DNA from: Vampirovibrio sp.
GTDB lineage: Bacteria > Cyanobacteriota > Vampirovibrionia > Vampirovibrionales > Vampirovibrionaceae
Direction: 5' to 3'
Assembly: GCA_027448865.1 (NCBI GenBank)
Contig: DAIDMR010000230.1
Coordinates: 1 to 41,301 of the forward strand
DNA length: 41,301 nt
Shown here: piece after piece, positions 5,363 to 23,383 of the stretch
Numbering within the stretch: the first letter of the stretch is position 1
Layout: each line of letters starts with the position of its first letter
Notes under the pieces: model-generated
What the model was told of the DNA's origin: nothing
The model's database searches: none
What the model saw: the letters and a program-made list of their open reading frames with translations, nothing else
Translations under genes and position numbers: made by a program

Positions 5363-5434
5363 GGGCGCATAACTCAGCGGTAGAGTGCCACCTTCACACG
5401 GTGGAAGTCGTAGGTTCAAGTCCTACTGCGCCCA
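5363..5434 (+). tRNA. tRNA-Val (anticodon CAC), intact; left attachment site
   Basis: 72-nt cloverleaf: acceptor GGGCGCA/TGCGCCC, D arm ACTC/GAGT, anticodon stem CCACC-TTCACAC-GGTGG (anticodon CAC), T arm GTAGG-TTCAAGT-CCTAC. Confidence 0.9.
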
Positions 5435-6618
5435 TATTTTTAAATCCCGAAACGCCTCACTCCCACAGGATTTTAGAGAATCCGGGGAGTTTTTTAGTTT
5501 CTGAGGATTCTCAATCTCAAAGCGGCATTTCTGCTAAAAAGAGCCAAACTTCCACAAAAGTTCAACATGTTTCGGGGCTACTTTCTGTAAGCCAGGTCAG
5601 CGAAAAGCTGGGTGTTTCTTCCATGACTGTCACACGCTGGTGTGAATCTGGAAAACTTCCGGCCACGGCCAAACCTTACGGTAAGAAAATCAGCTGGTTT
5701 ATTAGTCCTTTGGCTTTGGACATGCTGGCCCGTGAGGAAAAGATTGAACTTGAAGCGAAAAAAACAAAAAACATCAAGCCCCACAGTGAATATATGGCTC
5801 AATGGGTTCAGGCTATGGCCACCGGCACGCTGAATGGCAAAATCTACACAAAGCGTTCAATTGAGGAATATGTCCGCTATGTCAGGGCTTATCTGGAGAA
5901 TCATGCCGTGGTCACCGCTTCCGGGCTAAAATCTGAGCTGATGAGCATTCCTGCCGTGATGTTCGCCAAACGGGAAAAATATTACAAGGGTGTTCTATGC
6001 TTTGCTAGGTTCCTAGTGCAATGTGAATTTCTGGAACCTGAGTTTTTAAACTCAATCAAACCACTATTCCCAAAGCGCCATTTACCCCCCAAAAGAACCG
6101 TGGTGGATGAGACGGGGGTTGAAAACCTATTGATGGCCTGTAAAACAGTTCAGGAACGCTTAATAATCCTATTGTTAGCTCACACTGGCCTACGGGCAAG
6201 TGAGGCATGCTCCCTGGTGTGGGGGGATGTCGATATGGAGCAAGGCTTTATTGTTGTTCGCTTGGGCAAGGGGAATAAAACCCGCAAGGTTGGCATATCT
6301 GCTCGATTGATGGAGGCGTTACAGGATCAAAAGCAAGCCACTTGTCACGTTGGGACTAAACCTGTCCTGTTGGATAAGCATGGGCAAGCCATGCACCGGA
6401 GTGGTCTACTGCAAAGGCTCAAGCGTTTGGGGCGGATGGCCAGTGTTATAGTTTCCCCTCATGCCTTGCGCCGGGCCTTTGTGACTATCAATGCCAATAA
6501 AGGCCGCCCCCTGGTTATCTTGCAACGCTCTTGCGGACATTCTGACATCAAGACGACCATGAGCTACTGTCGGACGGCTGAGCAGGAGGTCATCGAGGCC
6601 ATGAAAGGGTGGGATTGA
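5434..6618 (+). CDS. int: tyrosine recombinase/integrase, body (intC) of a gene split by integration; N-terminal MerR/excisionase-like HTH plus catalytic domain
   Basis: LLSVSQVSEKLGVSSMTVTRWCESGKLP HTH; catalytic HTGLRASE (R), GKGNKTRKV (K), PHALRRAF (HxxR), CGHSDIKTTMSY (H, Y). No ATG/GTG/TTG in frame from 5434 to 5622; the frame is open through the tRNA back to 5296. Confidence 0.9.
   Translation: MFLNPETPHSHRILENPGSFLVSEDSQSQSGISAKKSQTSTKVQHVSGLLSVSQVSEKLGVSSMTVTRWCESGKLPATAKPYGKKISWFISPLALDMLAREEKIELEAKKTKNIKPHSEYMAQWVQAMATGTLNGKIYTKRSIEEYVRYVRAYLENHAVVTASGLKSELMSIPAVMFAKREKYYKGVLCFARFLVQCEFLEPEFLNSIKPLFPKRHLPPKRTVVDETGVENLLMACKTVQERLIILLLAHTGLRASEACSLVWGDVDMEQGFIVVRLGKGNKTRKVGISARLMEALQDQKQATCHVGTKPVLLDKHGQAMHRSGLLQRLKRLGRMASVIVSPHALRRAFVTINANKGRPLVILQRSCGHSDIKTTMSYCRTAEQEVIEAMKGWD
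5550..5568. promoter_or_regulatory. candidate arm-type integrase-binding site (P' side)
   Basis: TTCCACAAAAGTTCAACAT, 18/19 identical to 23222-23240 TTCCAAAAAAGTTCAACAT across the att core. Confidence 0.5.
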
Positions 6619-6649
6619 AAAATAAGTTCATTGAGTGTACCATATTTAA

Positions 6650-6967
6650 ATGAAGCCGACTTACGACCTAAAGCTTGTTAAAGAACTGATCCGCAATGGA
6701 CATTATCGAATAACCCTTCGGGCTCTGAGCGACGCTCAAAGTGACTTCGATTTTGATGCGGAGAGGATTTTGGAAGAAATTCTCGGGCTAAAACTACAAG
6801 AGCTAGACAAGACTATGCCTTCAGAGAAAATGCCAGATCTTTGGCAGGATGTTTACAAAAAGCGGGTCATCGTCCATGCCAGAGTCCAAACGGCCTATAT
6901 CAAGCTCAATATTGTAAGGCCTAGTAATAAAGAGACAGCCGTTGTGATCTCGTTCCACAAAGCCTAA
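6650..6967 (+). CDS. mqsR: MqsR-like toxin
   Basis: LQELDKTMPSEKMPDLWQDVYKKRV...AYIKLNIV...AVVISFHKA resembles MqsR (DFYKSM...WQDVYRPRL...YLKITV...LIVSFKE). Confidence 0.75.
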   Translation: MKPTYDLKLVKELIRNGHYRITLRALSDAQSDFDFDAERILEEILGLKLQELDKTMPSEKMPDLWQDVYKKRVIVHARVQTAYIKLNIVRPSNKETAVVISFHKA

Positions 6968-6986
6968 AAGGAAAGGAGCCAAACCA

Positions 6987-7472
6987 ATGAGCAGAACAAC
7001 TGACAAGGTAAAAGCAATGGGTGATTGCGCGGTTTGTGGCGCCTCGACTCTCTTGGTGGTTGTGCCCGAATGGGAGGTTCCCGGCTCCGCCACAAAGCCT
7101 GCCGTGGTTGTCCAGGCGGTTGAGTGCCTTGAATGTGAAAGCTGCGGGGAGCGCTACCTGGAGCCTGAGCAAGTCCGTGCTTTTGAGAAGAAAGTGATAG
7201 AGGCTCAACGTGCTGCAAAGAACCTGCTCAGTGCGGCAGAGATTTTGCAAATTCGTGAGTCTTTGGGCATTAACAAGGAGCGCCTTGAAAAAATCCTGAA
7301 TTTAAACCCAAAATCTTTCTACCGTTGGGAAAACAGCCTGTCTATTCAATCTGACGTAGTGGACACGATGCTGAGAATCCTGCGTAAGAACCCAAACGCA
7401 GTTTATGCTTTAGCGGAAGAGCGGCATATTCCCCTAACCGCATTAAAAGGCCGCCCTAAAAAAGCTGGATAG
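6987..7472 (+). CDS. mqsA: MqsA/YgiT-like antitoxin (zinc finger + HTH)
   Basis: CAVCG...CLECESCGERYLEPEQV zinc-binding N-terminus and HTH LRESLGINKERLEKILNLNPKSFYRWE-type C-terminus, directly downstream of the toxin. Confidence 0.8.
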   Translation: MSRTTDKVKAMGDCAVCGASTLLVVVPEWEVPGSATKPAVVVQAVECLECESCGERYLEPEQVRAFEKKVIEAQRAAKNLLSAAEILQIRESLGINKERLEKILNLNPKSFYRWENSLSIQSDVVDTMLRILRKNPNAVYALAEERHIPLTALKGRPKKAG

Positions 7473-7479
7473 CCAAGAA

Positions 7480-7512
7480 ATTTCATGGGGCGCACTCGAA
7501 GCCCCATGAAAA
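7480..7512. terminator. bidirectional terminator-like hairpin between convergent TA operons
   Basis: TTTCATGGGGC-gcactcga-GCCCCATGAAA. Confidence 0.55.
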
Positions 7513-7522
7513 CAGGGATAGA

Positions 7523-7858
7523 TTAGGCTTTTGCCCCTGAAGCGTCGAGTTTCACTTCTAAATGAGCGCCAAGCACTTTAAGAATGGCTCGGATATTCGA
7601 CCACTTGGGGTTGCCTTTTTCTGACAGTAAATCATAGATATGCTCCCGTGAAACACCGGCCACGGTAGCCACTTCCGCCATGCTCAGGCCATAGGCTGCC
7701 GCTACATGCTTAACGGCTATCAGGAAAGCTGCTGGATCGTCATCTTCAAGAGCTACATTCAGATAAGCCTGGGCTAATTCAGGATCTTCTTTTAAGGATT
7801 GGTGAAGCCCCTCATCATGAAGAACAGAACGGGGTGGTGCTTTCTTTTTAGTGGCCAT
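7523..7858 (-). CDS. HTH antitoxin (HigA-like addiction module antidote)
   Basis: HTH MAEVATVAGVSREHIYDLLSEKGNPKWSNIRAILKVLGAHLEV; paired with the RelE/HigB-like ORF. Confidence 0.8.
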   Translation of the reverse strand: MATKKKAPPRSVLHDEGLHQSLKEDPELAQAYLNVALEDDDPAAFLIAVKHVAAAYGLSMAEVATVAGVSREHIYDLLSEKGNPKWSNIRAILKVLGAHLEVKLDASGAKA

Positions 7859-8189
7859 CGTTTCGGCTCCTGTAATCTTTTAAGTAAGTCTGGGCTTTGT
7901 TAATGTCGGCTTGTTGCCCATTTTTTGAGCCTCCCAGTAGGAGAAGAACAATTTTTTCACCTTCCAAGCCGTAATAAACTCGGTAGCCAGGGCCAAAATT
8001 CAGCTTGAGTTCAAAGACTCCGCCGTCTACACTCTCGGAAACACCAAAATTACCGGCTTCCATTTTGGTAACACTGTTCATGATTCGGGCCTTGGTGAGC
8101 TTATCCTTGATAGTGTTTAGCCATTCGGTGTAAGGTTCATGGCCTTGAGGCGTAACGTAGCGCTCAAGTGTTTTAGCTTGACCTTGCAT
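7848..8189 (-). CDS. RelE/HigB-like toxin (addiction module killer, Gp49-like)
   Basis: FELKLNFGPGYRVYYGLEGEKIVLLLLGGSKNGQQADINKAQTYLKDYR motif; overlaps the antitoxin start. Confidence 0.85.
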   Translation of the reverse strand: MQGQAKTLERYVTPQGHEPYTEWLNTIKDKLTKARIMNSVTKMEAGNFGVSESVDGGVFELKLNFGPGYRVYYGLEGEKIVLLLLGGSKNGQQADINKAQTYLKDYRSRNDGH

Positions 8190-8246
8190 ATTTGCAGTGT
8201 AGGATAAAACCTACAAGTTTGTAATCATTTTGTTGTTGATTATCGA

Positions 8247-9575
8247 TTAAGGCATTAGTTTTTCCCTAAACTTTGTCAAGTGAGGCACGAACAGAAGGGG
8301 GATCTCCATCTGGACGCCATCCCGCTGTTTGGCGATAGTCAAAGAAGCCACCCCGGTTGGCTTACGGTCTTCCATGCGCTCAATGCTGGTGAAAAGCACA
8401 ATATCGCTGTCCATTTCAATGCCGCCTGAGTCTCTAAGGTCGGAGAGCATGGGCTTCTTGTCCTGCCGGGCATCCACCGCCCGGTTCATCTGGGCCAGTT
8501 GGATAATGGGCACTTGAATGGTTTTGGCCAGAGTCTTTAAACGGCTGGTGATGGCCTGAATTTCATAGGCCCGGTTCTGTTGCTTGCTGTTGGGCTCTGA
8601 GGCAATCAAACCAATATGATCCACCACTATCAAGGCCAAATCAGGCCGCCGCTTTTTGGCTTTCATGATTTTGGACTGAATGGCCGCCAAGGTTTGACCG
8701 GCGGCATCCTCTATCATGAGATCCTTTTGGAACGGCTTCCAAGCAATGGCCGCTATCTTCAAGGCGTCCAAGTCTTTGGGGTTGCCTGCCTTAGCCTTGA
8801 TGGCCCGCTTCATTAACTCGCTGGCGGTCATTTCCAGGCTGATATAAAGCACCGGCTTCCGCTCTTGAAGCACCACATGACAAGCCACGTTCAACGCAAA
8901 AGCGGATTTACCCCCACCGGGTCGGGCAGACACGGTGATCAACTGCCAGGGCTGAAAGCCGTGGGTTGAATTATCCAGTGTGGGGAACCCCGTGGATAAT
9001 CCGGTAACCCCATTGGGACTGTTGGCCTCCGCTTCAAGCTGTTGAATGGCCTCCTCAATGGGATCGGATGTCCCCATAGTGTCGGTGGGGAAGGTTTCCG
9101 ATATTAGGTAAAGTAGATTTTCCGCCTCTTCCAGATAGGTGGACTGTTCCCGCTGGGCTGCTGAGTCGGCAATATCCTGACAGGCCAGAATCACTTCCCG
9201 CCGCCGGGCCAGATCAATCAAGAGCTTTGACCAGTGCTTCAGGCTGGCATCATTTAGAACTTGGACATCGGGATTGCTGCCAAGCATTAAATCATAGAGA
9301 TAGGCTGACCCTTCGGCTATGGCCAAGCTGCCGGAAACCTCCAGAGTCTGGGTTAAGGAAATGGGCTCTATAGGGACTTGCTGTTCAAAGCAGTCCAGCA
9401 TAGCCTGAAAGATTGCCTGATGAACGTTTGAGTAAAAGTGTTCAGGCTGAAGCAGGCCCACCACTTGGGGAAACAAAGCAGGATATTGCAGTAGCCCACA
9501 GAGAATGCCCTGCTCTACCGCCACAGAATGAGGAAGACGTTCAATTGGCTGAAGCTCTGTCTCAAAATCATGCAT
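8247..9575 (-). CDS. dnaB: replicative DNA helicase DnaB-like
   Basis: LITVSARPGGGKSAFALNVA (Walker A), LIVVDHIGLI (Walker B), MLSDLRDSGGIEMDSDIVLF; N-terminal PHSVAVEQGILCGLLQYP. Start taken at MHDFETE. Confidence 0.92.
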   Translation of the reverse strand: MHDFETELQPIERLPHSVAVEQGILCGLLQYPALFPQVVGLLQPEHFYSNVHQAIFQAMLDCFEQQVPIEPISLTQTLEVSGSLAIAEGSAYLYDLMLGSNPDVQVLNDASLKHWSKLLIDLARRREVILACQDIADSAAQREQSTYLEEAENLLYLISETFPTDTMGTSDPIEEAIQQLEAEANSPNGVTGLSTGFPTLDNSTHGFQPWQLITVSARPGGGKSAFALNVACHVVLQERKPVLYISLEMTASELMKRAIKAKAGNPKDLDALKIAAIAWKPFQKDLMIEDAAGQTLAAIQSKIMKAKKRRPDLALIVVDHIGLIASEPNSKQQNRAYEIQAITSRLKTLAKTIQVPIIQLAQMNRAVDARQDKKPMLSDLRDSGGIEMDSDIVLFTSIERMEDRKPTGVASLTIAKQRDGVQMEIPLLFVPHLTKFREKLMP

Positions 9576-10545
9576 TTGAGGGCTCCTCCAGGCAGCCTTC
9601 CAGGTGGGCGACCGGATAATAATCAAAGGTCTTCTTGTGGCTCAATCCGCTGGGGGATTCCGGGCGAATTTCGAGTTCCTCTGAACGAAACCATTCGGGG
9701 GTGTACTTATGCCGGATGAATGGGAACTTTAACAAAGCCTCTGATTGGCTGCTCAGATCCTCGATGGCATGCGTTTTTGGTGCTTCGGGTGTCCAAGCCT
9801 CTAATTTATTTTTAAGCGTCGTTTTGAACCACTGGGGCGCTGTTGCGTTTTTGGACACCGCAAGATCGCAAGTGTCTCGCCATAACCGAAGGATTTCCGG
9901 TTTGGGAATATCGGGTTTGGTTTTTGCCAGTTCCTGAAGTTGGATTTTCAGGAATCCCTGAATCCACCCAGTGTTTTGATGATTGGGGCTGTTTAGGGAG
10001 GACAGGTAAAGCATGCCCTCCTGAGCCAATGCTTGGTTGGGGTCTATTTCATTTTCCAAACCGATCACACTCACACCTGAACCGATAGGTTCGGATTGCA
10101 GGTTAGAGTTTAAGGTTAAAGGGTTAAGGGTTAAGGCCGGGCTCGGCATCGCCTTGGTTGTGCTTAGGCACTGCCTAGGTTGTGCCTCGGCATCACCTAG
10201 GTTTGCCTTGGAAATTGGACAGGGTGGAATCTCGCTCTCTGCCTCACGGATGTGTGGTTTTTGATGCTTATGGAAGTTCTCGATTTGAATAAACTTCTCC
10301 CCTTCGATCTGGTAACGGGTGATAAACCGGCCTGAACTATCAGCAAGTTCATTTAAGAGAGGTTCTATATCAATGGCTTCAAATGGGAACAGTTCGGCCT
10401 TTATTTTTAATGGCCGGTCTTCTAATCGGCCACGGCGATCAGCAAGCAGCCATAGACCTGCAAATAATAAACGGGCATAGGGGCTCACCTGAACCAGAAA
10501 TTCGTTTTTATAGAATCCTGGCTTTAAAAGTCTGGCTCTGGCCAT
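9568..10545 (-). CDS. phage replication-initiator-like protein (replication protein O / replisome organizer type)
   Basis: N-terminal MARARLLKPGFYKNEFLVQVSPYARLLFAGLWLLADRRGRLEDRP typical of phage replisome organizers; overlaps dnaB start. Confidence 0.7.
   Translation of the reverse strand: MARARLLKPGFYKNEFLVQVSPYARLLFAGLWLLADRRGRLEDRPLKIKAELFPFEAIDIEPLLNELADSSGRFITRYQIEGEKFIQIENFHKHQKPHIREAESEIPPCPISKANLGDAEAQPRQCLSTTKAMPSPALTLNPLTLNSNLQSEPIGSGVSVIGLENEIDPNQALAQEGMLYLSSLNSPNHQNTGWIQGFLKIQLQELAKTKPDIPKPEILRLWRDTCDLAVSKNATAPQWFKTTLKNKLEAWTPEAPKTHAIEDLSSQSEALLKFPFIRHKYTPEWFRSEELEIRPESPSGLSHKKTFDYYPVAHLEGCLEEPSNA
10101..10208. repeat. iteron cluster inside the initiator gene; candidate replication origin
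   Basis: GGTTAA-type 7-8 bp repeats (10101-10136) followed by three tandem 22-bp units 10143-10164, 10165-10186, 10187-10208. Confidence 0.5.
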
Positions 10546-10576
10546 TGGGCAAAATCTCCAACAGGTTCGGAAAATA

Positions 10577-10594
10577 GGAGGGCCGAAGCCCTCC
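10577..10594 (-). terminator. stable hairpin with cUUCGg loop (minus strand)
   Basis: Minus strand GGAGGGCttcgGCCCTCC between two minus-strand genes; no strong T-tract. Confidence 0.35.
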
Positions 10595-10646
10595 CTGTTC
10601 CGTGATAATATGTGGGTAACTTAAATTTGCTTCTAACGGTCGTAGG

Positions 10647-10829
10647 CTAATTGCCTGCGGCTTTTGTTTTACTGCCCTTGGGCTTTGGCTTCCCGGAGTT
10701 GTGGATGTGAAACAAGCCAGCTTGCATCAGGTGGGCATAGAGCTTCGACTCACGGAAGTCCTGCCAGGCTTTATCCTCCAAGGGGAGGTAAAGCTTCAAC
10801 TCAGCGTAAGGCTTTGAAAACTTGGACAT
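10647..10829 (-). CDS. hypothetical 60-aa protein
   Basis: ORF in the tightly packed minus-strand operon. Confidence 0.5.
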   Translation of the reverse strand: MSKFSKPYAELKLYLPLEDKAWQDFRESKLYAHLMQAGLFHIHNSGKPKPKGSKTKAAGN

Positions 10830-10831
10830 GG

Positions 10832-11089
10832 TTATTGTTCCTCTCTCTTATGCGCTTTCAACCACTCACCGAGGAAGGCCCCGGCTTGAAGCATTTCGTA
10901 AACGTCCACCTCTTTGTGAGGATCTACATTCATCAGGCAAAACCCCTCAAAGAAGGTGAAATGGGCGATTTCAGTAATGGGCTCTAGGGTGTCCGCCGCA
11001 TGCTCCAGTTGCTGAAACTGGTCGGGGTGTTCAGCTTGTAAAATGCGGACAAATTCGCTGGGGCCCGAAGGCAGGAAATAGGTTTTCAT
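10832..11089 (-). CDS. hypothetical 85-aa protein
   Basis: ORF adjoining neighbours in the operon; preceded by aaggagcaccacc on the minus strand. Confidence 0.6.
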   Translation of the reverse strand: MKTYFLPSGPSEFVRILQAEHPDQFQQLEHAADTLEPITEIAHFTFFEGFCLMNVDPHKEVDVYEMLQAGAFLGEWLKAHKREEQ

Positions 11090-11101
11090 GGTGGTGCTCC
11101 T

Positions 11102-11311
11102 TTAGTTATTGGTTGGACTTTTAAATTCAAGGACTTTGGCGGGTTTGTGTTCGGCGGCACGGCGGGCCATAACCTTCTGATGAAGCTGGGTAATGTTTTC
11201 TTCAAAGATTGCCATTGCAGCTTGCAGGTCACCGACTATCTTTTGATAACTGCTGTTTTCCTCTGCCGTCATCTGCTCTTCGAGCAGATTTTTGAAGATT
11301 CCTTCACGCAT
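11102..11311 (-). CDS. hypothetical 69-aa protein
   Basis: ORF overlapping the upstream gene end. Confidence 0.55.
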   Translation of the reverse strand: MREGIFKNLLEEQMTAEENSSYQKIVGDLQAAMAIFEENITQLHQKVMARRAAEHKPAKVLEFKSPTNN

Positions 11312-11930
11312 GATTAGAGTCCTCTTTTTGGTTTTTGAGTTCTGATAACGGTCGTAAAATGCCTTCCCGGTGCAGGGTGTGAACTCTTACGGTGTACCGG
11401 TGCCCTTCATCTCTTAAATGAGGCTTTACATCTGCCCGAAAGCTCCAGCCAAACATTTCAATTCGAGTTTCCAGTCCGGCCAGTTCTACATGAGCAAAAA
11501 TGTAACCATCGGCAAGGTGGGTAAAACGGTTGGTTTTACTGATTTTCAGCCTGAGGCTTTCTGATTTACTAGATTTAACATCCAGCTTCAAGCCTTCCAC
11601 TACAACGTCATAGCCACCATCTGTTCCTTTAAGCCCAGCCAGAAACTCAGAAATGATTTTTTCTGCTGTAAACCCTAAGTAACGTTGAACGGCTATTTCC
11701 CCCAATAGGCCAATATAGTCGGCTTCTGGGTTCCACCGTGAAGTGGTTTTCCAGTCCCGTTTCCTTAGCTCAGACACCTCTCGGATAATCTCAGACGCAT
11801 CCCTAGAGAATCGCAGAATGGGTCTGTCACCTTCAAAAATGTAGCTGGATTCGATGGCAATCTTGAAAGCCTTTTCCCCCCTTGGGGTAAGCCCCCGAAA
11901 GCCGGGCCGGATGGTAATCAATTCAGACAT
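11304..11930 (-). CDS. PD-(D/E)XK nuclease-like protein
   Basis: GLLGEIAVQRYLG...GTDGGYDVVVEGLKLDVKSSK resembles the E...D...DVK signature. Start taken at MSELITIRPG with aaagga upstream. Confidence 0.5.
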   Translation of the reverse strand: MSELITIRPGFRGLTPRGEKAFKIAIESSYIFEGDRPILRFSRDASEIIREVSELRKRDWKTTSRWNPEADYIGLLGEIAVQRYLGFTAEKIISEFLAGLKGTDGGYDVVVEGLKLDVKSSKSESLRLKISKTNRFTHLADGYIFAHVELAGLETRIEMFGWSFRADVKPHLRDEGHRYTVRVHTLHREGILRPLSELKNQKEDSNHA

Positions 11931-11977
11931 AGTTCTATCCTTTATTTCTTGGTTACAGGGGTGAATTTTCAAAGTAC

Positions 11978-12012
11978 AAAAGCCGCCTCACGAATGTGTC
12001 AGACGGCTTTTT
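11978..12012. terminator. terminator-like hairpin within the minus-strand gene cluster
   Basis: aaaagccg...cggctttt. Confidence 0.6.
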
Positions 12013-12088
12013 GAAAGGTCGCTGAGCATCAATCACTCGGTGACCTTGTTATCTCATTTAAGGTTGAGGGAATCAGGACTGTAGAAGG

Positions 12089-13051
12089 TTAGATTTGGGT
12101 AGTTTTCGGGTAGCAATTTTGCTCTATTTCCCAGTCTAATCTTATTTTCCCTTGATTTAATCTCAGTAGAATATGACCAGGCACAATCCTTTTAAAATCT
12201 GACTTGATGGCATTGACCTGCGCTTTGAATTGGTCACAATCCATTTCCAAGTCTCTGCTAAGAGTGTCGATATCAGCCGTGCCACCCTTTTCAATCAAAC
12301 TTTTTAATAGTTTGTGCTTATCATAGCCTCTTCTCAGAAACGGCTGTTTACCGAAGTAGACCTGTGGCTCTTCAAATTCATCAAGACCTATGTAGAAGGT
12401 GTTTGAACGGTTGTTTGGACATTGCTGCTCGTTTTGTCCAGATTGGTTGAGGGTGTTTTCTCCCTCAGCAGGGGGTAAATCAATATCAGCAGTGGCTTCC
12501 TCAATTTTGAGGTCGTTGGTTTCTGTGTCCAGTAAGTTTCCGGTCAGTTCGCTCAATCCCTCGAAAAAGCTTTCTGCCTCAAAATTCAACCACCAAAAGC
12601 CTTGGATCATTGAATCTTTGAAAAGGGCGACTGCTACAATTCGACAAAGACCCTCTAGTTCGGATTCTGAAGGAGATAGCGTAATGTCTGAGAGGTTCAG
12701 GAAAGCTAGGACACTTCGGCTTAAAATCTGTTTTAAGTAGATAGGTGCTTCTACAGGGTAGCCTTTAATCCTTTCGGGGAGTGATTGAATTACAAATTCA
12801 AGAAATTCTGGTTGAAAAGCTTGCCACTGAAGGGGGCCTTGGTTTTTGAATCTCTCTATTGCAAGGTCGTCAAAATCCCGATAAACCATCAACACAAGTT
12901 TTCGGGCGATGTTTTGTTTTTGCTCGTCGGACAAATTTTCAAGGGAGGGTAAGTCAATAAACGGCAATGCGACTTTCAGGAAAGCCAGCTTCCAGTCTGT
13001 GGCCGTTTTCAGGTTCCAGATAGATAGATCGTTTGATGGGGCTTGACTCAT
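12089..13051 (-). CDS. unknown protein with a possible C-terminal winged-helix domain
   Basis: Long ORF; C-terminal KLLKSLIEKGGTADIDTLSRDLEMDCDQFKAQVNAIKSDF looks wHTH-like. Confidence 0.6.
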   Translation of the reverse strand: MSQAPSNDLSIWNLKTATDWKLAFLKVALPFIDLPSLENLSDEQKQNIARKLVLMVYRDFDDLAIERFKNQGPLQWQAFQPEFLEFVIQSLPERIKGYPVEAPIYLKQILSRSVLAFLNLSDITLSPSESELEGLCRIVAVALFKDSMIQGFWWLNFEAESFFEGLSELTGNLLDTETNDLKIEEATADIDLPPAEGENTLNQSGQNEQQCPNNRSNTFYIGLDEFEEPQVYFGKQPFLRRGYDKHKLLKSLIEKGGTADIDTLSRDLEMDCDQFKAQVNAIKSDFKRIVPGHILLRLNQGKIRLDWEIEQNCYPKTTQI

Positions 13052-13120
13052 TAATAGCCGTCCTCGTGGCTCTTTGACCTTTGCGTTTTGGGAAATCTTA
13101 CGGGCGCAAATCTGCGCCGG

Positions 13121-13585
13121 TTACTTTTTCTTTGACCTGATTAAAACTTCGCCTTCCTCCTCATCCTCCCAGGAGATCAGTTTAAAATCTTTTAAAACCT
13201 CGAAAATCATATCCAGGGCTTCTTCTGGCCTGACCTTATCTAAGTCCGCAAAGAAAAACCCGCCAATATCCACCGCCAAGTCAAACCGAAATGCGATGTC
13301 CTGTCTGGCTTTCTTCTCTGGGAAATCAACCTGCCGCCAAGTTACATAATCATTGCCTTCCACCGGCTTAAAGTACTTCAGAATGTCTTTAAGCCAAGCG
13401 TCGAACTGCTCATAAAACTCGCTGTCTTCATAAGATGTGTCTGTGGACTTGAGATAAATCCACCGGGCATCGATGAACTTGCGCTGAGCCTTCCCTTTTT
13501 CAACCAACAGGCAGGGAATATCCAGCAATTTGTCATTGAACTGAACGTAAACAGGTTTTTTCTCTGGGGGTGGGGGCTTGGTCAT
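13121..13585 (-). CDS. hypothetical 154-aa protein
   Basis: ORF in operon, abutting its neighbour. Confidence 0.65.
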   Translation of the reverse strand: MTKPPPPEKKPVYVQFNDKLLDIPCLLVEKGKAQRKFIDARWIYLKSTDTSYEDSEFYEQFDAWLKDILKYFKPVEGNDYVTWRQVDFPEKKARQDIAFRFDLAVDIGGFFFADLDKVRPEEALDMIFEVLKDFKLISWEDEEEGEVLIRSKKK

Positions 13586-14219: not shown

Positions 14220-14254
14220 AGCTTGGTCCTGTCTCTTAAAGGCTCTTTGGTAGA

Positions 14255-14521: not shown

Positions 14522-14537
14522 TCTGTTATTTACCTCT

Positions 14538-14747: not shown

Positions 14748-14939
14748 AAAAGAATCCTCTTTGTTTTTTGTTATTCAAATATTCTACAGAGTTAAAATCA
14801 ACTTATAAAGCTTTTTATAGTTTTTTGCATTGCTAATATTAAGATTTTTAAATATTTGTTTTTCGTGTTGCGTAAAACAAGATGATGGGCTATATTCTTA
14901 TTGTTAAATGCAATGCTTTAAACATAAAGGCTTATCAAA

Positions 14940-15119: not shown

Positions 15120-15351
15120 AAAGAGCCCTTGAGATAGAAGCTCCCAAGGACTCAAGTCCAATCGCAAAGGTCAATCATTGAAAGGACAAAACAAGCCTAA
15201 CACGAAACCCCGTAATCACACACCATCGTTAGAACATCAATAAGAGAGAGGTAGAGAGAGAATGCACCCCCAACCCGCTAACGGGCAAGCTTGCGCTGCC
15301 CTGAAAACCTATAACAGTCGCACCGAAAGCAACCCACAGGAGGAAAACACC

Positions 15352-16002
15352 ATGGCCTTGAGAGCCGAATCCCTGAAACCTGAATTAAATTTGCTGGTGT
15401 TACCTGGCACCCCATCCGACAATCTAAGTGATGAAGACTGGGCTGAAAAGGCCTTGCGTTCAAAGCTGCCGATTGAGCGTTTAGAGTTTATGCGCCAAAT
15501 GGTGGCCCGGCATCCTGAGGAGCAAGCGCAACAGGCCCGCTATATTGAGCTGCTGGAAGGTCTGGTTCGAGAGTGGGAAGGGGATTACAGTAACCCGATT
15601 ACCAGCTATGGGGTGCTGGCTCACTTCCGGCAACTGCCAGAGGATGTTTTTCTGGAGCGCTTGGGCGCTGTCTTCCAGAAGGCAAAAATCAAGCTGAATG
15701 AAGACCAGGCTCGGGAAGCTCACCGGGATATGGTAAACATTGAATTGCCAGTGTTGCCTCAGCAGGAACGGGAGGCGCTTTATTTGCTGGGGGAAAGTAA
15801 CACCCCTACCCAGAATCGCATCTTTCTGGAACTGTTACAGGATATGACGGGGCAGCTCATTTTCGACTATTGCGACACGCTGGATCTTTTCGATGTTTTT
15901 GAGACGAAAGACTGGCTGGCGGAAACGGTCATTCAAGCCCTGAAAAGGTTGAGGCCCGATTTTCGAGAAATGCTAATATCCACCCTGAACGGCATGAAGT
16001 AA
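15352..16002 (+). CDS. unknown protein (216 aa)
   Basis: ORF start MALRAESLKPELN preceded by caggagg Shine-Dalgarno. Confidence 0.7.
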   Translation: MALRAESLKPELNLLVLPGTPSDNLSDEDWAEKALRSKLPIERLEFMRQMVARHPEEQAQQARYIELLEGLVREWEGDYSNPITSYGVLAHFRQLPEDVFLERLGAVFQKAKIKLNEDQAREAHRDMVNIELPVLPQQEREALYLLGESNTPTQNRIFLELLQDMTGQLIFDYCDTLDLFDVFETKDWLAETVIQALKRLRPDFREMLISTLNGMK

Positions 16003-16197
16003 GTCCTAAAGCGCCTGAATAGAAAGAAAGCCCACTGAGCTAAGCCGCTTGGTGGGCTTTCGAGAGGTCGGGGTAAAATTTCGATAACTGACTCGGAGAT
16101 TTTACCGAGTGCAATTTTTCGCTCAGCCTTCCTCTTTTTTACGAAGACGAAAATTCGATTTTCCTATAAAACACACTGCCATTGGGCCTTTTTAAAT

Positions 16198-16209
16198 TGA
16201 GAATTCTCA
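16198..16209. promoter_or_regulatory. palindromic operator-like site TGAGAATTCTCA, copy 1
   Basis: Perfect 12-bp palindrome within repeated tttaaattgagaattctcaca. Confidence 0.5.
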
Positions 16210-16264
16210 CACAATTAAATGGATCAATATATTTATGATATTGAGAAAACACTTTTTAGGTCAA

Positions 16265-16273
16265 TGCTATAAT
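16265..16273 (+). promoter_or_regulatory. extended -10 promoter TGCTATAAT
   Basis: Perfect TGnTATAAT upstream of the non-coding structured region. Confidence 0.55.
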
Positions 16274-16279
16274 TGGGTT

Positions 16280-16740
16280 CGGGCTTGCAAAGGTGTGTTT
16301 ACAGTACATTGCTGCCGCAGGCCAAAAGCAATTTAAATCTATAAAATAAAAACATGAACGGCCAAGTTAAGCCGCAGAGCAGGTGGGCGAGTGAAACGAG
16401 GACGGCTGCGAAGAGGCCCCGTCGAGCAAAGCGAGACCCTGAAAAGCTTACCTTTTTACAGTGTAAATAAAAAAAAGAAAAAGCCTACTTGATGCGTTCC
16501 CGCAGCGGAGCGAGGAAACGCATGCCTCACCGGGGAGGTGGTTCCCCTGGAAGGGGCGGAGGGGTAGTTTAACTGAAAACCTGTGATTGGGCCATCCTAT
16601 TTTTTAAACAGCCGAAAAATTTTAAAATTGAGAATTCTCACAAAAAACATCTAGATCGCCGCAATTTTGCGGAGACTATTAACCACCCCAATTTTGGGAG
16701 CGTTAGATTTAACAGCGGGCGTCTCCCAGTTTGAAGGCCG
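16280..16740 (+). ncRNA. candidate structured non-coding RNA region
   Basis: No substantial ORF; many stems: CGCAG/CTGCG, GTCGAGCaaaGCGAGAC, ATGCGTT/AACGCAT (16492-16523), CCCCtggaaGGGG, CCGCAATTTTGCGG, CCCAATTTTGGG, GTTA/TAAC enclosed by GGAGAC/GTCTCC (16671-16726). Confidence 0.4.
16629..16640. promoter_or_regulatory. palindromic operator-like site TGAGAATTCTCA, copy 2
   Basis: Same palindrome and flanks as 16198-16209. Confidence 0.5.
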
Positions 16741-16844
16741 GGTGAAATGTTTGATCGGATATGAAAAAAGGTTAATTGGCTCTAGTCAATAGGCTAAGAA
16801 CATTGGAGAATAAGGCTGACCTGAGGAACTATGGAGGAGCATCT

Positions 16845-17015
16845 ATGAAGCAATTGGATAAAGAAATGGACGCAATCGACTCATTGAACATGGTTTTAAA
16901 CCGCATTGCATCGAGACTGCCCTTTGATTACCCCGACCTTTATGAGCGCTACCTAAAGCGGTGGCACCCGGAAGATTACGAGGCTTACAAACGGAGCCAA
17001 GAAACTCAAGAATAG
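16845..17015 (+). CDS. hypothetical 56-aa protein
   Basis: MKQLDKEMDAIDSLNMV... with ggaggag upstream of ATG 16845; the longer ORF from 16776 is less likely. Confidence 0.55.
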   Translation: MKQLDKEMDAIDSLNMVLNRIASRLPFDYPDLYERYLKRWHPEDYEAYKRSQETQE

Positions 17016-17027
17016 AGCCAGCTTAAG

Positions 17028-17063
17028 ACAATCTTAAACTTGCTCACTTGGGTTTAAGATTGT
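17028..17063. terminator. 12-bp perfect inverted repeat hairpin
   Basis: ACAATCTTAAAC-12 nt-GTTTAAGATTGT; no T-tract, so terminator status uncertain. Confidence 0.35.
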
Positions 17064-17114
17064 ACGCTTATCATTAGGAATGATTAGAAATGGCTGAGTG
17101 TGGGAGTAAAGTTC

Positions 17115-17252
17115 ATGGGCAATATCCACGATTACACTGACAGCTTGGTTCGTTTAGTTTCTCAGTTTATGACGGTCTGCTCTGTGGATCCTGGCATTTC
17201 TGAAGCTGAATATCAGTCGATTCGAGAGCGTTTGTTAAGGGCCATGATCTAA
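17115..17252 (+). CDS. hypothetical 45-aa protein MGNIHDYTDSLVRLVSQFMTVCSVDPGISEAEYQSIRERLLRAMI
   Basis: ATG ORF below cutoff, convergent with the 17253 gene. Confidence 0.35.
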   Translation: MGNIHDYTDSLVRLVSQFMTVCSVDPGISEAEYQSIRERLLRAMI

Positions 17253-17714
17253 TTAAGCCTCTTTCATGGCTTCTTTTTGCTGATTCAGAACGACTGTGTG
17301 AATCCGATCCATCGCCTTTACGGCCACATCGGCCAAAGCAGCCAAATCCCGATCTTTGAGAGGCGTTTCATCGGCCAGCCGGGCATTGATGCGCTCAATC
17401 AACTTACGAAGTACACCGCTGGACTCTGTGAGCAGTGCGGCCAACTCGGTCACGTCCTGGTCAAGCGCTCTGTTAATCTTTTCCTGCCGCTCTTCCAGGT
17501 AGGCTTTCACACCCTCGTCAATGCGCTCCTTATGAGCGTTTATAATCTCACGCACCGCCTGCCGGGAATAACCGTGGCGTTTCATTAACTCCCCAATGGT
17601 CAGGCCAGCAATGCGATCCTGAACCACCTTTTCATGCTTGCCGGTTTCTTTGACCGACTGCGCTTTTGGCGTTGGCTTCTTGGCTTTACTTTTTATAGTT
17701 TTGTCTTTTTGCAT
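17253..17714 (-). CDS. HTH protein; possible terminase small-subunit-like
   Basis: HTH DRIAGLTIGELMKRHGYSRQAVREIINAHKE followed by coiled-coil-like helices; TerS assignment tentative. Confidence 0.5.
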   Translation of the reverse strand: MQKDKTIKSKAKKPTPKAQSVKETGKHEKVVQDRIAGLTIGELMKRHGYSRQAVREIINAHKERIDEGVKAYLEERQEKINRALDQDVTELAALLTESSGVLRKLIERINARLADETPLKDRDLAALADVAVKAMDRIHTVVLNQQKEAMKEA

Positions 17715-17863
17715 GCTTATGCCGCTTTATGCCCTTCTCGCTCGGCTTTGAAATTGACTCGCTCACTGTACATCCCCTTTGCGAAAACGCTTTCGACAAT
17801 GGAAAAGAAAAGCCCCACCCACAATGAGGCCGTAGCGTAGTTATTAAATAGGGCGTCACTGCT

Positions 17864-18433
17864 TTGAAATTAGCAGAGATTATGCTTGATCGTGGCATGA
17901 CTGATTCTGAACTTGCCAAAGCCATAGGCGTTCAGCAATCAACCGTTTTCCAGTGGAAAGCAGGCGGCTTTTCTCCTAAGGCAAAGAGTCTGTTTAAGCT
18001 TTGCGACGTTTTAAATTGCTCCACCAATGAACTGCTTGGGTTCAACTCTGTTGATGTGTCTTTACCCGACTATCAAGGACAGCGCCTTTATGACGCCGTT
18101 ACTCAAGAAGGGCATTTTGATTCCCAGTTGATTCATATTTTTGCAACCCGGATCCGCAAATTTGCTGGGAAAGCCACCAGTCTTGAAACGTGGATGAGAC
18201 ATATTGCGGAAGCTCTCTATGAAATAGAACTCGCCAAGAGCGATCCTGCTTCCCTCTCCAACGCTCCTCGGGGCTTGGTTGCTGTACCGGATCAAGAGAC
18301 TGCCGATATTACTCAGCGCAATTTTGCGCCTACTTTTGTAGTGGAAGCATCTGATGTCAAGCCGCTCAGTCTGAGAAAGATTGATCGAAAGCGGCGTAAA
18401 AAAGCATTGCGCTTTAAATCTGGTAAAAACTGA
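17864..18433 (+). CDS. XRE-family transcriptional regulator
   Basis: MTDSELAKAIGVQQSTVFQWKAGGFSPKAKSLFKLCDVLNCSTNELLGF HTH. TTG 17864 or ATG 17881 start. Confidence 0.75.
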   Translation: MKLAEIMLDRGMTDSELAKAIGVQQSTVFQWKAGGFSPKAKSLFKLCDVLNCSTNELLGFNSVDVSLPDYQGQRLYDAVTQEGHFDSQLIHIFATRIRKFAGKATSLETWMRHIAEALYEIELAKSDPASLSNAPRGLVAVPDQETADITQRNFAPTFVVEASDVKPLSLRKIDRKRRKKALRFKSGKN

Positions 18434-18517
18434 AAGCCATTGGCCTTCTTTTGCCCGCCTCTCAATGAAAAAGCGGCTTTATTCTTTGCTCAATTGCAAA
18501 GCGTAAGGTGCTGATTC

Positions 18518-21500
18518 ATGACTGAAGAAAAAATAGCGATAAGTTACGAGGCCAAAGGCGTTGGTCAGTTTATAAAGTCCGCCAAAGACGCTGAGAAGGC
18601 TTTGCGGGAAGAGGCCAAGGCGCTGGATGTGTCAGTCAATCAGATTCAGAAGCGCATCATCGAATTAAAGAAGTCAGGCACGGCCAGCCAGGCACAAATT
18701 CGGGCCTTGCAACTAGAAAGCCAAGCCCTTCGTTTAAATTCCGCAGACTTGAAAAACCAAGCCGCTGCACTTAACCAACAAGCCCAAGCCGCCAAACAAG
18801 CCCTTCGTCCTGCTGAAGATCTGACCAAAGCATTGTTAAGCCAAGGCGTGGCCGCTGTTGGAACCGGGGTGGCTTTTGCGGGTTTAGGCGTTGGATTATC
18901 GAAAGCAATCACTGGGTTTGGAGACTTTGAGCGGACGCTGAACACCATTAAGGCAGTGTCTCAAACCACGGCTGGGGAGCTAGATGCTATCAAGCGCTCA
19001 GCCTTAGAACTGGGTGCTAAAACCATCTTTTCCAATCAGGAAGTGGCAAACTCTTACCTGGAATTAGCTCGGGCCGGGTTTACCACTCAGGAATCCTTGG
19101 CCGCTATGCCGGGTTTGCTCAGTTTGGCTGCAGCCGCTGGGGGTGATCTGTCCTCCTCTGCTGAAATTACAGCCGGGATTCTCAGGGGCTTTAACCTAAA
19201 CGCTTCTGAAGCGGGCCGGGTGGCTGACGTGTTAGCCCAAGCCGCCAATGTGTCCGCCGGTGAAATTGGAGACTTTGGGGCGGCCCTGAAGCAATTAGCC
19301 CCTGTGGCCCTCAGCTCTAACCAGTCCCTTGAGGATTTATCCGGCTTACTGGCCGTTCTGTCTAACCGGATGATTAATGGAGCGGATGCCGGAACCGACT
19401 TGAAAGCGGTTCTATTACGTTTGGTAAGGCCAGAAACACAAAAAGAACTCAAAGCCTTAGGGTTAGAAGTCACCGACACCGAGAAGCGCATTAAGCCGCT
19501 GATTCAGATTATTGGAGAGTTTCAGCAAAAGTTCAAAACCCTGAATCAGGCTGGACAGCTTGAAGTCGCTGGCAAAATTGCAGGCATTGAAAACGTAAAA
19601 TCCCTTTTGACCCTGATTAACACGGATAAAGGGGAGCTGGAAGAGTTCATCGCCAAAATGAAATCAGCGGATGGGGCCGCTGCCTCTATGGCTGCAACCA
19701 TCAATCAAGGGGTGAACACCTCCCTTGAGCAGTTTGGCGGCTCGGTGGAAACGCTTGCCTCTAAACTAGGTGAAAAGCTGGCTCCTGCGTTTACCGCTGT
19801 TGTGGACACCGCCACGGATCTATTTACTGCCTTGGGTAGTAATGACGGCTTGCAAGCCTTCACCATTGGGGCTGCTGCCGCTGTGGTGGGTGTGGGTAGC
19901 TTGGTGGGGGCATTAAAACTGATCCCGCCTGTGATTGAAGCTGTAAAAGCAAGCTCCCTTGCTCTTTCCGTCGCCTTGGGCATTGAAACCGGGGGACTGA
20001 CTTGGGTCATTGGTGGGCTGATTGCCGCCGGTGGGGCGCTGGGGGTGATGTACCAGCAGCAATCCGAGAATCAGCGCCGCATGGCTCAAACCACTCTGGA
20101 ACTTAGAGGAGAAGTGGATCAGCTTACTGAATCTCAGGCTCAAGAGGCTTTAAAAACAATCAAGCTGGCAAAGGAATATGATGAGCTGTCAAAGAAGAAA
20201 AACCTAACCAGCAGTGAAAGCCAGCGCTTAGGGGATTTGGCCGATTTTCTAGTGACTCAATTAGGCGTTGAGGGAGAATCGGTTGATCAGCTCACTAAAA
20301 AATATGGTTCTCTGACAGCGGCCATTCGGGAGAAAACCATCGCTCAGCTTGCCGAAAAAAGACAAGAGGCTCTGACTGAAAAACTGAAACAAACACAGGC
20401 CGATAGAAAACAGGCTGGCTTAGATGTACAGGCGGCTCAAGGCGCGGAAGGTAACTTCTTTAACCTGATTTACGGGCCAGATGGCAAGCTGGTGACAGGA
20501 AAGGCTCGAAGGAAACTCCTTAGCAGCCAGACAAGAAAAGCCAAAGAGACGCTGGAAAGGCTGAAGCGAAAGGAAGAGTTTGAAAAAGATGCTATCCTTT
20601 CGGCCTTGGATGACACACGAAAGATTGTAAGCGCCACGGAGAATCCACCCAAAAATCCAGCGCCTAGCAATTTTGGCAATCAAAATGCCCCAAGCTCTGG
20701 GGGAAGTACCAAGAAGCCCCGGCAAGGGCGGTCTCAAGATTCTGTTGAAAGACGGCAAGTGAGTGACATCCTCAAGGGACAGAGCGCCTTTACGGCCAAC
20801 CTGGACGCCAATGAAGCATTATTCAAAGCAAACCTTGGGCCGGAGCCAACACGGGTTGAGTTGGCGGCTATTGAAACTCGTAAGCTGGCACTTGCTGAAA
20901 AAGAGTTGCTAGAAACCCAGAAACAACTGAACGCTTTAAATCCCAAAACGGAAGGGGGGCTTGAGGCCCGTAAAACCGCACTGGAAAATGTGGCCGCTGA
21001 GCTAACCAGAAACAAAGTGGCCACCAAAGAGTTGGAGAACGAGACAGCCCGATTCAACAAGACTATTCAGAACCGGGAGCGGGACTTTATCCAAAACCTG
21101 CAAGCCAATGGCGCTCAAAATGAGTTCAGCCAGCTTGCAGAGAATATCCAGCAGCGCCAGCAGGAGATTGAAACCCTTTATGATAAAGGCCTGATCACGG
21201 CCGAGGAATATTACGGCAGACTTGCAGAAGCCAGCAAGTTTCAAGCAGACGCTGAAATTAAGTTTATTGAGCAGCAAATTGCCGCTATTGACGCCCAGGA
21301 AGAAGCCCTAACCGGCCTTGAGATTGAGAACGGTAAGCTTTTAGAGCTTGAACAAAAGCGGGCGGAGCTGCAAGGACAAATCACGGTCAAGCTGAAACAA
21401 CAGCAAACCACCCAAGCCGAACTGAGCGCCAAGCTCACCAAAAGCCTAGAGGCTACTGGCGATAGACTGGGCAATGCCTTTGAGCAGCAGTTATCTAACG

Positions 21501-22870
21501 CCATTCAGGACGCTTTGACCGGCGGTGGGGTGCTTGGGGCGATCAAGCAATTCGCCAAGGCGTTTGGTGGCTCTGTCCTGAAAGAATTGGCCGATGGACT
21601 GGCTAAAAATGCCAGAATAGCGCTTGAGCCATTCCTTCAAGCAATCGGCCAAGGCATTAACCGGCTGTTTGGACGACAAAGCAACCCTAACGGCGCAGCT
21701 TCCCCCGGCCTTGGGATTTCCGGAGCTTCTATTGGCAAAGCGGGGGCCGCCGCCGCAGGCATCGCAATCTCCTCTTTAGGCGCTAATATCGCCGGGCAGA
21801 ATAGAAGCACAGGCCGGAATTTGGCAGGGGTTGGCGTTGGCGCTGCTGGTGGTGCTATTGCCGGGGCCACCATTGGCTCTATTGTCCCTGTGGTTGGAAC
21901 GGCAATTGGCGCAGTGCTTGGGGCTGCTGTAGGCGGAACTGCGGCGGCTGCAAAATCCAGCGGTGGAGCTTTCGCAGGTAAAAGCAAAAGCGCTTTAATT
22001 GGTGGTCTTGCGGGTGGGGGATTAGGCTTTTTAATTGGCGGCTTTTTAGGAGCTGCCAAAAGAAAGCGTGAAATTGAGCGGCAGCAAAAAATTGCAGACG
22101 AGTTAGTAAATAAGGCTCTTAACGGCGCAGACCAAAATAATATTTTAGACCTACAAGGCCGCAGAAGCGCACTGTTGCGAAATAACAAAGGTCTGACCGG
22201 CAGCCGGGTTAAAACCATCCGGGATGGCGTGGCTCAAATTGACGCACTGATTAAAGCCCGGCAAACCTCAATCAATGAAGCCATCAAGGAATTTGAGAAG
22301 CAAAACAAAGACTTGGCCGACCAAGTGGCCTTGAATGATGCCAAGCCATTCGAGCAAGCCGCTATTGAGCGGAAAATAGCCATCCGACAAATCGAGTTCG
22401 ACACGGCCAAGCTATTAGAGCAGTTTAAGGACTCCGAGAAGGCCAAGACCCAGATCCTTGAGCAGGAAGCCTTGAAGCGGAAGCTGTTGCAGCAGCAGGA
22501 GTCTGACAATGCCAAGGAACTGGTGCTGGATTATCAAGACTTGCTCAAGCAGCGGGATGAAGTGGCGAATGCAAACGTGTTCCAGCGGGCTAAAAGCGCT
22601 GAGCAGGTCAAAAAAGAAGCCCTCAGCAATATCGATAAAGACATTGCAGAGGCAGTTTTAAAGCTGCAAGGTGTTTTGAATGCGGGCATTACCCCTAGTA
22701 AGGCTTCGGGATTGAATCAGGTACTTGGGCAGCTCCAGCAACTTAATGGCTCAAATGCTACCTTGAATGTCTATATTGATGAAGCCAATGATCCAGCTAT
22801 GGTGAATGAAGCTGTAACCAGAGCGTTTAACTCATTTGCCATGAAAGTCTTTGGAGCCAATGCTGTTTAG
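18518..22870 (+). CDS. phage tail tape measure protein (TP901-type), 1450 aa
   Basis: FERTLNTIKAVSQTTAGELDAIKRSALELGAKTIFSNQEVANSYLELARAGFTTQE...GDFGAALKQLAPVA motifs; long coiled-coil; C-terminal glycine-rich hydrophobic segment. Confidence 0.9.
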   Translation: MTEEKIAISYEAKGVGQFIKSAKDAEKALREEAKALDVSVNQIQKRIIELKKSGTASQAQIRALQLESQALRLNSADLKNQAAALNQQAQAAKQALRPAEDLTKALLSQGVAAVGTGVAFAGLGVGLSKAITGFGDFERTLNTIKAVSQTTAGELDAIKRSALELGAKTIFSNQEVANSYLELARAGFTTQESLAAMPGLLSLAAAAGGDLSSSAEITAGILRGFNLNASEAGRVADVLAQAANVSAGEIGDFGAALKQLAPVALSSNQSLEDLSGLLAVLSNRMINGADAGTDLKAVLLRLVRPETQKELKALGLEVTDTEKRIKPLIQIIGEFQQKFKTLNQAGQLEVAGKIAGIENVKSLLTLINTDKGELEEFIAKMKSADGAAASMAATINQGVNTSLEQFGGSVETLASKLGEKLAPAFTAVVDTATDLFTALGSNDGLQAFTIGAAAAVVGVGSLVGALKLIPPVIEAVKASSLALSVALGIETGGLTWVIGGLIAAGGALGVMYQQQSENQRRMAQTTLELRGEVDQLTESQAQEALKTIKLAKEYDELSKKKNLTSSESQRLGDLADFLVTQLGVEGESVDQLTKKYGSLTAAIREKTIAQLAEKRQEALTEKLKQTQADRKQAGLDVQAAQGAEGNFFNLIYGPDGKLVTGKARRKLLSSQTRKAKETLERLKRKEEFEKDAILSALDDTRKIVSATENPPKNPAPSNFGNQNAPSSGGSTKKPRQGRSQDSVERRQVSDILKGQSAFTANLDANEALFKANLGPEPTRVELAAIETRKLALAEKELLETQKQLNALNPKTEGGLEARKTALENVAAELTRNKVATKELENETARFNKTIQNRERDFIQNLQANGAQNEFSQLAENIQQRQQEIETLYDKGLITAEEYYGRLAEASKFQADAEIKFIEQQIAAIDAQEEALTGLEIENGKLLELEQKRAELQGQITVKLKQQQTTQAELSAKLTKSLEATGDRLGNAFEQQLSNAIQDALTGGGVLGAIKQFAKAFGGSVLKELADGLAKNARIALEPFLQAIGQGINRLFGRQSNPNGAASPGLGISGASIGKAGAAAAGIAISSLGANIAGQNRSTGRNLAGVGVGAAGGAIAGATIGSIVPVVGTAIGAVLGAAVGGTAAAAKSSGGAFAGKSKSALIGGLAGGGLGFLIGGFLGAAKRKREIERQQKIADELVNKALNGADQNNILDLQGRRSALLRNNKGLTGSRVKTIRDGVAQIDALIKARQTSINEAIKEFEKQNKDLADQVALNDAKPFEQAAIERKIAIRQIEFDTAKLLEQFKDSEKAKTQILEQEALKRKLLQQQESDNAKELVLDYQDLLKQRDEVANANVFQRAKSAEQVKKEALSNIDKDIAEAVLKLQGVLNAGITPSKASGLNQVLGQLQQLNGSNATLNVYIDEANDPAMVNEAVTRAFNSFAMKVFGANAV

Positions 22871-22892
22871 CTATTTTTCAGCACCTAACCTG

Positions 22893-22926
22893 AAACGCCC
22901 CGGCTAACACCGAGGGCATTTTTTTA
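22893..22926 (+). terminator. rho-independent terminator after tape measure gene
   Basis: gccccggctaacaccgagggcattttttt. Confidence 0.7.
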
Positions 22927-23221
22927 GCCAAAGTCACTGGGTAGGTTCTAGTTTTTCGGTAAGAAGCTTCACAAGCCTATTTTTAGGCAGGTAAAAGGGC
23001 TTTTATCCCTAATTTTAGAACGCTTTTGGATTTAAGCCCGCTAGAAAGCTTATAAGCAGGCGCTTCAAGTCTTGGCATGCCCTAACACCTAAAGTCTCGC
23101 TTGCGCTTCTTCCTGAGCCTCCTAGCATGGGGCAAAATTTAGAAGCCTTTGGTTACTTTTAGAAACTACTTACGCTTGCCCTGTGTTTTCGATTTCTTAT
23201 CAACGGGCCAAACAGGCCAAG

Positions 23222-23240
23222 TTCCAAAAAAGTTCAACAT
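23222..23240. promoter_or_regulatory. candidate arm-type integrase-binding site (P side)
   Basis: TTCCAAAAAAGTTCAACAT, 18/19 match to 5550-5568. Confidence 0.5.
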
Positions 23241-23266
23241 TTAAGCAAAGGTCAGGAGAAACCAAA

Positions 23267-23383
23267 ATGGCAAAACGCACGCCAGATGCGCATAACTCAG
23301 CGGTAGAGTGCCACCTTCACACGGTGGAAGTCGTAGGTTCAAGTCCTACTGCGCCCACCACTCTGTTACAACAAACAAACTAA
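23267..23383 (+). CDS. intN: N-terminal fragment of the split integrase (start codon + core peptide), running into chromosomal sequence
   Basis: caggag SD 8 nt before ATG 23267; MAKRTPDAHNSAVECHLHTVEVVGSSPTAP in the same frame through the core as intC; followed here by host-derived TTLLQQTN-stop. Confidence 0.75.
   Translation: MAKRTPDAHNSAVECHLHTVEVVGSSPTAPTTLLQQTN
23288..23357 (+). repeat. attR: 70-bp tRNA-Val direct repeat lacking the first two acceptor bases
   Basis: Identical to 5365-5434; 5' bases AT instead of GG disrupt pairs 1-72 and 2-71. Confidence 0.92.

Follow-up and report, generated by a model that had tools for sequence, protein, structure and literature searches.

Vampirovibrionales are predatory relatives of cyanobacteria. 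In the window analysed here, a stretch of 41,301 nucleotides from a Vampirovibrio sp. genome, an island of 17.9 kb is inserted in a tRNA-Val gene, and the reading frame of its integrase (Int) runs out of that tRNA with no evident start codon. Where does this gene begin, and what would the position of its beginning mean for the element once it is integrated?

The island in tRNA-Val and the two ends of its integrase gene

ARAGORN recognises a tRNA-Val(CAC) at the left border and a second copy at 23286-23360 at the right border, and the two share a perfect direct repeat of 70 bp (Table 1). A genome of the same genus (G015) carries an uninterrupted tRNA-Val site whose flanks are 82% identical to those of the window. 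This empty site fixes the ends of the island, and thus the host's tRNA terminator is seen to stand now beyond the right end.

Table 1. Features of the island and its borders (positions within the window)
Feature	Position	Strand	Evidence
tRNA-Val(CAC) at attL, restored by the island	5363..5434	+	ARAGORN, repeat, frame
Left att core, part of the tRNA; int frame reads through	5365-5434	+	repeat, frame
Integrase body without start codon: tRNA-encoded codons, linker, winged HTH, core-binding and catalytic domains	5365..6618	+	
Intrinsic terminator in the int frame, 25 nt past the tRNA; hairpin of -12.8 kcal/mol, then TTTTTT	5460..5495	+	
Left-arm repeat CCACAAAAGTTCAACATGTT within int; probable arm-binding site of Int	5552..5571	+	
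HTH_17 (winged HTH) of Int, contains first in-frame ATG (5623)	5578..5733	+	Pfam, structure model
Tyrosine recombinase catalytic domain (Phage_integrase, PF00589)	6103..6585	+	Pfam, E=1.7e-30
Two toxin-antitoxin modules adjoining int	6650..8189	both	Pfam
MqsR/MqsA module	6650-7472	+	Pfam
HI1420-like antidote with Gp49-like toxin	7523-8189	-	Pfam
Island genes for a DnaB-like helicase and a phage replication initiation protein	8247..10545	-	Pfam, PHROGs
Tail tape-measure protein, 1450 aa, last gene before the right end	18518..22870	+	PHROGs
Right-arm repeat AGTTCCAAAAAAGTTCAACATTT, immediately 5' of the SD; probable Int arm site	23220..23242	+	
Shine-Dalgarno (SD) AGGAG, right end	23254..23258	+	
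int start codon and first 7 codons (MAKRTPD), in frame on through the core	23267..23287	+	
Right att core, displaced tRNA copy	23288..23357	+	ARAGORN, repeat
Host's original tRNA-Val terminator, moved to the island's far end	23401..23424	+	follows the tRNA in the uninterrupted site of the same genus

The integrase ORF is open from 5284 to its normal end at 6618. Past the tRNA, the first in-frame ATG, GTG or TTG is ATG 5623, which has no SD and lies in the recognition region of the HTH. At the opposite end of the island, ATG 23267 opens MAKRTPDAHNSAVECHLHTVEVVGSSPTAP in the frame of the left ORF, and the right end joined to the left ORF via the core forms a stop-free ORF of 424 aa. An earlier note on this DNA had claimed the start-less body, the right-end SD and ATG in its frame, the single joined ORF, and the parting of SD and start codon from the catalytic body; the frame scan, the repeat and frame checks and the stop-free joining agree with it on all four. 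One qualification applies. The left body is start-less after the tRNA, but the note had missed that its frame remains open upstream of the tRNA into host DNA, where TTG 5296 and ATG 5299 stand in frame. Neither has an SD or is conserved, and both lie within the likely tRNA promoter or upstream of it; upstream host starts of this type, also without SD, are present in the left frame of the window and of a few relatives.

In a structure model of the ORF, Int residues 1-70 are disordered (pLDDT about 30), and the winged HTH, core-binding and catalytic domains all follow residue 70 and are all found in the left piece. Because of this disorder, a tRNA in any frame may be tolerable as N-terminus, and integration would remove expression signals only: the predicted loss consists of these signals plus about 30 residues of disordered tail, with no folded domain. 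The R..K..HxxR..H..Y catalytic residues are invariant in the integrase alignment. Profile matches at E<=1e-5 include XerA/XerC-like, XerD, XerH, IntI4, Tn1549, Brujita and HP1, and an SSV1 entry is absent among the matches listed; in sequence, the enzyme is nearest to Xer-like and phage integrases.

The same frame at other tRNA genes of the order

The survey sample comprised 18 genomes of the order Vampirovibrionales. In 15 tRNA-adjacent HTH-integrases from several genera, located downstream of tRNA-Val, Pro, Asp, Gly, His, Glu, Ser or Arg and on the same strand, the int frame runs open from the tRNA core as far as the HTH. A paralogous island in the window's own genome (contig C309, tRNA-Pro), with an Int 43% identical to that of the window, shares the layout. 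Past its tRNA there is no ATG or SD-preceded start, a 55-bp exact repeat lies 19.7 kb away, and the far end contains an SD-ATG (MLECTNSRERSP...) in the int frame. Exceptions are one tRNA-Ile relative with its own start and one tRNA-Pro relative with a stop before the HTH.

Right ends were mapped by the att repeat in eight islands; some others run beyond contig ends or have short flanks. All eight contain an SD and an ATG or GTG in the frame of their own int, and in all eight the joined ORF is continuous and stop-free. Random island positions meet the criterion of SD plus in-frame start 3.9% of the time, which would give eight of eight by chance at about 6e-12 for independent islands, an assumption not fully true of this set. 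L090, where an SD-ATG/core junction is present but out of frame, was left out of the count: this locus belongs to a MAG with many frameshifted integrases, and its int is damaged.

In the tRNA-HTH linkers of 11 loci, totalling 550 codons, the int frame contains no stop and a single ATG; the other two frames contain 21 and 39 stops. These data bear on a reading in which the integrases are decayed genes that lost their start after integration, with a right-end ATG in frame by coincidence. Several copies in tandem arrays have indeed decayed. The integrases considered here, however, have intact catalytic residues and linkers free of stops, in-frame starts at eight of eight right ends, a conserved SD-ATG motif, and a distribution over 15 loci in several genera; decay is already contradicted by these facts and is scarcely credible.

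Another reading takes the right-end SD-ATG for a separate leader peptide ending past the core, so that its agreement with the int frame would be a side effect of the shared tRNA sequence. It is true that, once the element is integrated, the right ORF stops shortly past the core (in the window with TTLLQQTN and a stop). Yet the frame through the tRNA varies among elements (Val/Pro/Asp, Gly, two for Glu), and each right end takes the frame of its own int. In G011, two tandem islands at one tRNA-Glu use different tRNA frames, and each right end fits its own integrase. Moreover, the int body is otherwise start-less, and sister elements whose integrases have their own start show no start at the right end. 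A leader peptide is very improbable, and the right-end ATG is taken below as the start of int.

The earlier note had looked to related islands for a conserved frame across the tRNA core, and had named a junction that breaks the frame and a native N-terminus located after the core as points that would tell against its view. The frame is conserved over eight tRNA types and unbroken in the eight mapped islands, and on this evidence the natural Int N-terminus does extend across the att core.

Arm sites, terminators and the proposed switch

The right ends have in common AAGTTCAACATTT..AGCAAAGGTCAGGAGA..ATGGCAAAA. The SD lies in GGTCAGGAGA..ATGGCAAAA, which is exact at four right ends from four genomes, and the motif GGTCAGGAGAN{2,8}ATGGCAAAA is confined to these right ends in the 18 genomes (0 matches in the reversed-pattern control). 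A AAGTTCAACAT repeat is present at the right end and again in the left arm inside int, and the arm repeat co-varies between both ends of one element (AAGTTGGACAT, AAGTGAAAC and AAGTGGGACATT elsewhere; permutation p=0.0003). Repeats of the AAGTTCAACAT type are probably Int arm sites, bound by the HTH. The right end of the window's island yielded no consensus sigma-70 promoter, and the promoters of the host group may differ from that consensus.

A terminator scan detected a hairpin with a T tract inside the int ORF in 8 of 11 loci, in most at 13-34 nt from the tRNA; among the 8, one lies at 103 nt and one is weak. The in-ORF terminator takes the place of the displaced terminator of the tRNA.

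The explanation favoured here, which as a whole we hold to be highly probable, is that attP lies inside the 5' end of the island's own integrase gene, that integration displaces the start, and that Int is on in the circle and off in the integrated element. In the circle, the right end, with Int arm sites, probably a promoter, the SD, the ATG and 7-17 codons, would join the left end via the tRNA-derived core and give an int of about 420-450 codons. Integration would cut this gene at the core, placing the start signals at attR and the full catalytic body at attL behind the tRNA, where the body would have neither SD nor start. Ribosomes from the far-end ATG would cover the hairpin in the circle, and int would be transcribed; at attL, transcripts from the tRNA promoter would carry no ribosome through the hairpin, and the in-ORF terminator would end them before the int body. 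Excision would then depend on Int supplied in trans by a superinfecting relative or another integrase, or on leaky starts; besides superinfection and such starts, intact integrases elsewhere in the genome (two on contig C231) are candidate sources. We infer, with the earlier note, that integration may act as a one-way self-silencing switch.

A more far-reaching version, to which we give slightly less than even credence, would make these enzymes a bacterial family of self-disarming integrases with two locks, the removed start and an in-frame terminator that acts unless ribosomes from the far end cover it. Int would come only from the closed circle, integration could in effect be reversed only with the help of a second element, a tandem neighbour or superinfection would rearm the gene, and the tRNA would be coding in whichever frame is open.

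It might instead be that Int is also made in the integrated state, from the tRNA promoter and a weak start (host ATG 5299 or TTG 5296, some codon other than AUG, or ATG 5623 at the cost of a broken HTH), the start at the far end being only an extra used in the circle. In integrated ICEKp1, ICEclc and ICEEc1 the tRNA promoter drives transcription of int (PMC13023037), an internal start is frequent among archaeal int(C) pieces (PMC8371274), and the window does contain the in-frame ATG 5299. In 8 of the 15 loci, however, the int frame closes inside the tRNA; the linkers hold their one ATG in 550 codons, the first common ATG falls within the HTH recognition region (in the window without SD), and a terminator stands between tRNA and HTH. 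Expression of this kind is considered unlikely, and an integrase silenced by its own integration remains the preferred reading.

Sister integrases, known systems and accompanying elements

In other orders of the class, homologous HTH-integrases lie beside tRNA-Ala, Asp, Arg and Pro and have their own SD-preceded start a few codons before the HTH; an SD-ATG before the core is absent at all three of their mapped right ends. In a tree of 44 integrases these own-start enzymes form a separate clade (support 100/100), and the window's clade holds the split integrases plus nested HTH-less or own-start forms. Relatives with a start downstream of the tRNA, which the earlier note had named as evidence against its view, thus do exist, in that separate clade and in the tRNA-Ile case, while the window's clade keeps the frame. 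The simplest reading of the tree is one origin of the split int with later losses, although counts of 2-4 changes are not proof. Among 388 genomes sampled from the phylum outside the class, none yielded a close relative.

Integrase sequence and profile scans found no split relative as a free circular form in viral contigs; neither there nor among tandem second copies was a continuous int or an excised circle seen, and phage records gave distant matches to the integrase only. A scan of viral contigs with the right-end motif returned two unrelated chance matches. The second integrases of tandem arrays on G016 C16 and G017 C10, considered as natural continuous copies, proved to be decayed, and HTH-less integrases (G000 C231 and others), considered as split copies, have their own starts.

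Suicidal integrases were termed exclusively archaeal in a 2021 review, the type being that of SSV1, pTN3 and pT26-2 with their int(N)/int(C) pieces (PMC8371274). Like these, the split int has attP inside the gene, is cut by integration at a tRNA site and leaves a catalytic part without its start; the archaeal enzymes need a whole integrase from elsewhere for excision (PMC8371274), and by analogy the same may hold here. The present enzymes are, however, bacterial, with sequence kinship to Xer and phage integrases, and whereas the split divides the archaeal protein into an N-terminal and a C-terminal piece, here the HTH, core-binding and catalytic domains stay together. The term 'SSV-type partition' used in the earlier note therefore suits the mechanism but not the membership: no domain is split off, and no SSV1 match is listed.

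In ICEKp1, ICEclc and ICEEc1, described in 2026, a promoter at the far end serves the circle, and int expression driven from the tRNA is damped by stem-loops (PMC13023037). Common to them and the present islands are an int adjoining the tRNA in the same direction, a stem-loop past the tRNA and a host tRNA terminator displaced to the far end; far-end signals reach int in the circle only (PMC13023037), as the layout suggests here. In the ICEKp1 type, int begins 161 bp past the tRNA, the stem-loops lie in its 5'-UTR, and it is expressed in both states (PMC13023037), whereas here the start codon itself is displaced, the terminator is within the coding frame and there is no own start beside the tRNA. 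The split int works like an archaeal suicidal integrase combined with switching in the style of ICEKp1 and ICEclc, and is a member of neither family.

Other systems are partly similar. Myxophages Mx8 and Mx9 have a bacterial int that contains attP (PMC6070905) and that the Islander paper cites alongside SSV (PMC4383910); when Mx8 integrates, the 3' end of int is exchanged and its activity altered without being abolished (PMC6070905), while here the 5' end and start are removed. In the integration-dependent immunity of mycobacteriophages, attP also lies in a regulatory gene whose product integration changes, but that gene encodes a repressor, the change is C-terminal and the product is activated (PMC8092301); here the int 5' end is affected. 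In KplE1, attL overlaps the expression signals of intS, and Int arm sites near its start suggest autorepression, but unlike the split int it retains its own promoter and start at attL (PMC2951348). In the literature, subscription papers aside, no bacterial int was found whose start codon is displaced by integration.

A bacterial lineage would thus follow the suicidal logic by another route, with the start removed instead of a domain; if true, this would be a general solution for staying integrated without a dedicated repressor. Natural pairs of split and own-start integrases at tRNA genes bear on whether losing self-excision pays. The layout also accounts for gene callers missing or mis-starting these integrases, and for the fact that a peptide derived from a tRNA, such as VEVVGSSPTAP, can be genuine protein sequence.

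Several neighbouring elements deserve mention. In tandem arrays at tRNA genes (L054/L055 in G011 C29, L048/L049 in G017 C10, L044 in G016 C16, L053 in G015 C8), one element's right end immediately precedes the core and int of its neighbour, an order that in principle could rearm the downstream int; in both G016 and G017 the second copies seen have decayed, and the frames in G011 are mismatched. In the convergent pairs L047 (G015 C9), L061 (G001 C33) and L062 (G011 C5), an HTH-type integrase faces a shorter HTH-less one that has an SD-start of its own; the HTH-type int of G015 C9 is split, so that the second enzyme there could serve excision. The L063/L029 element (G017 C22), a split int at tRNA-Pro(CGG), contains in the coding linker of its left arm a second tRNA-like piece (GATAAGGGTGAGGTCCGGTGTTCAAGTCACCGATGGCCCACCA, like tRNA-Ile), possibly the trace of a changed target tRNA.

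Within the 18-kb island of the window, the tape-measure protein is the sole clear structural phage gene recognised, joined by a weak terminase-small-subunit match at 17253-17714 (PHROGs). This gene content suggests a satellite or a remnant, either borrowing the tail of a helper or measuring one of its own. Just upstream of tRNA-Val, a dispersed repeat of about 80 bp occupies 5201-5285 and recurs at 4620-4678 and 5122-5180. Some thirty matches to it are found in each of the window's genome and G014, and about twenty in G015; it is apparently a REP-like element of the genus.
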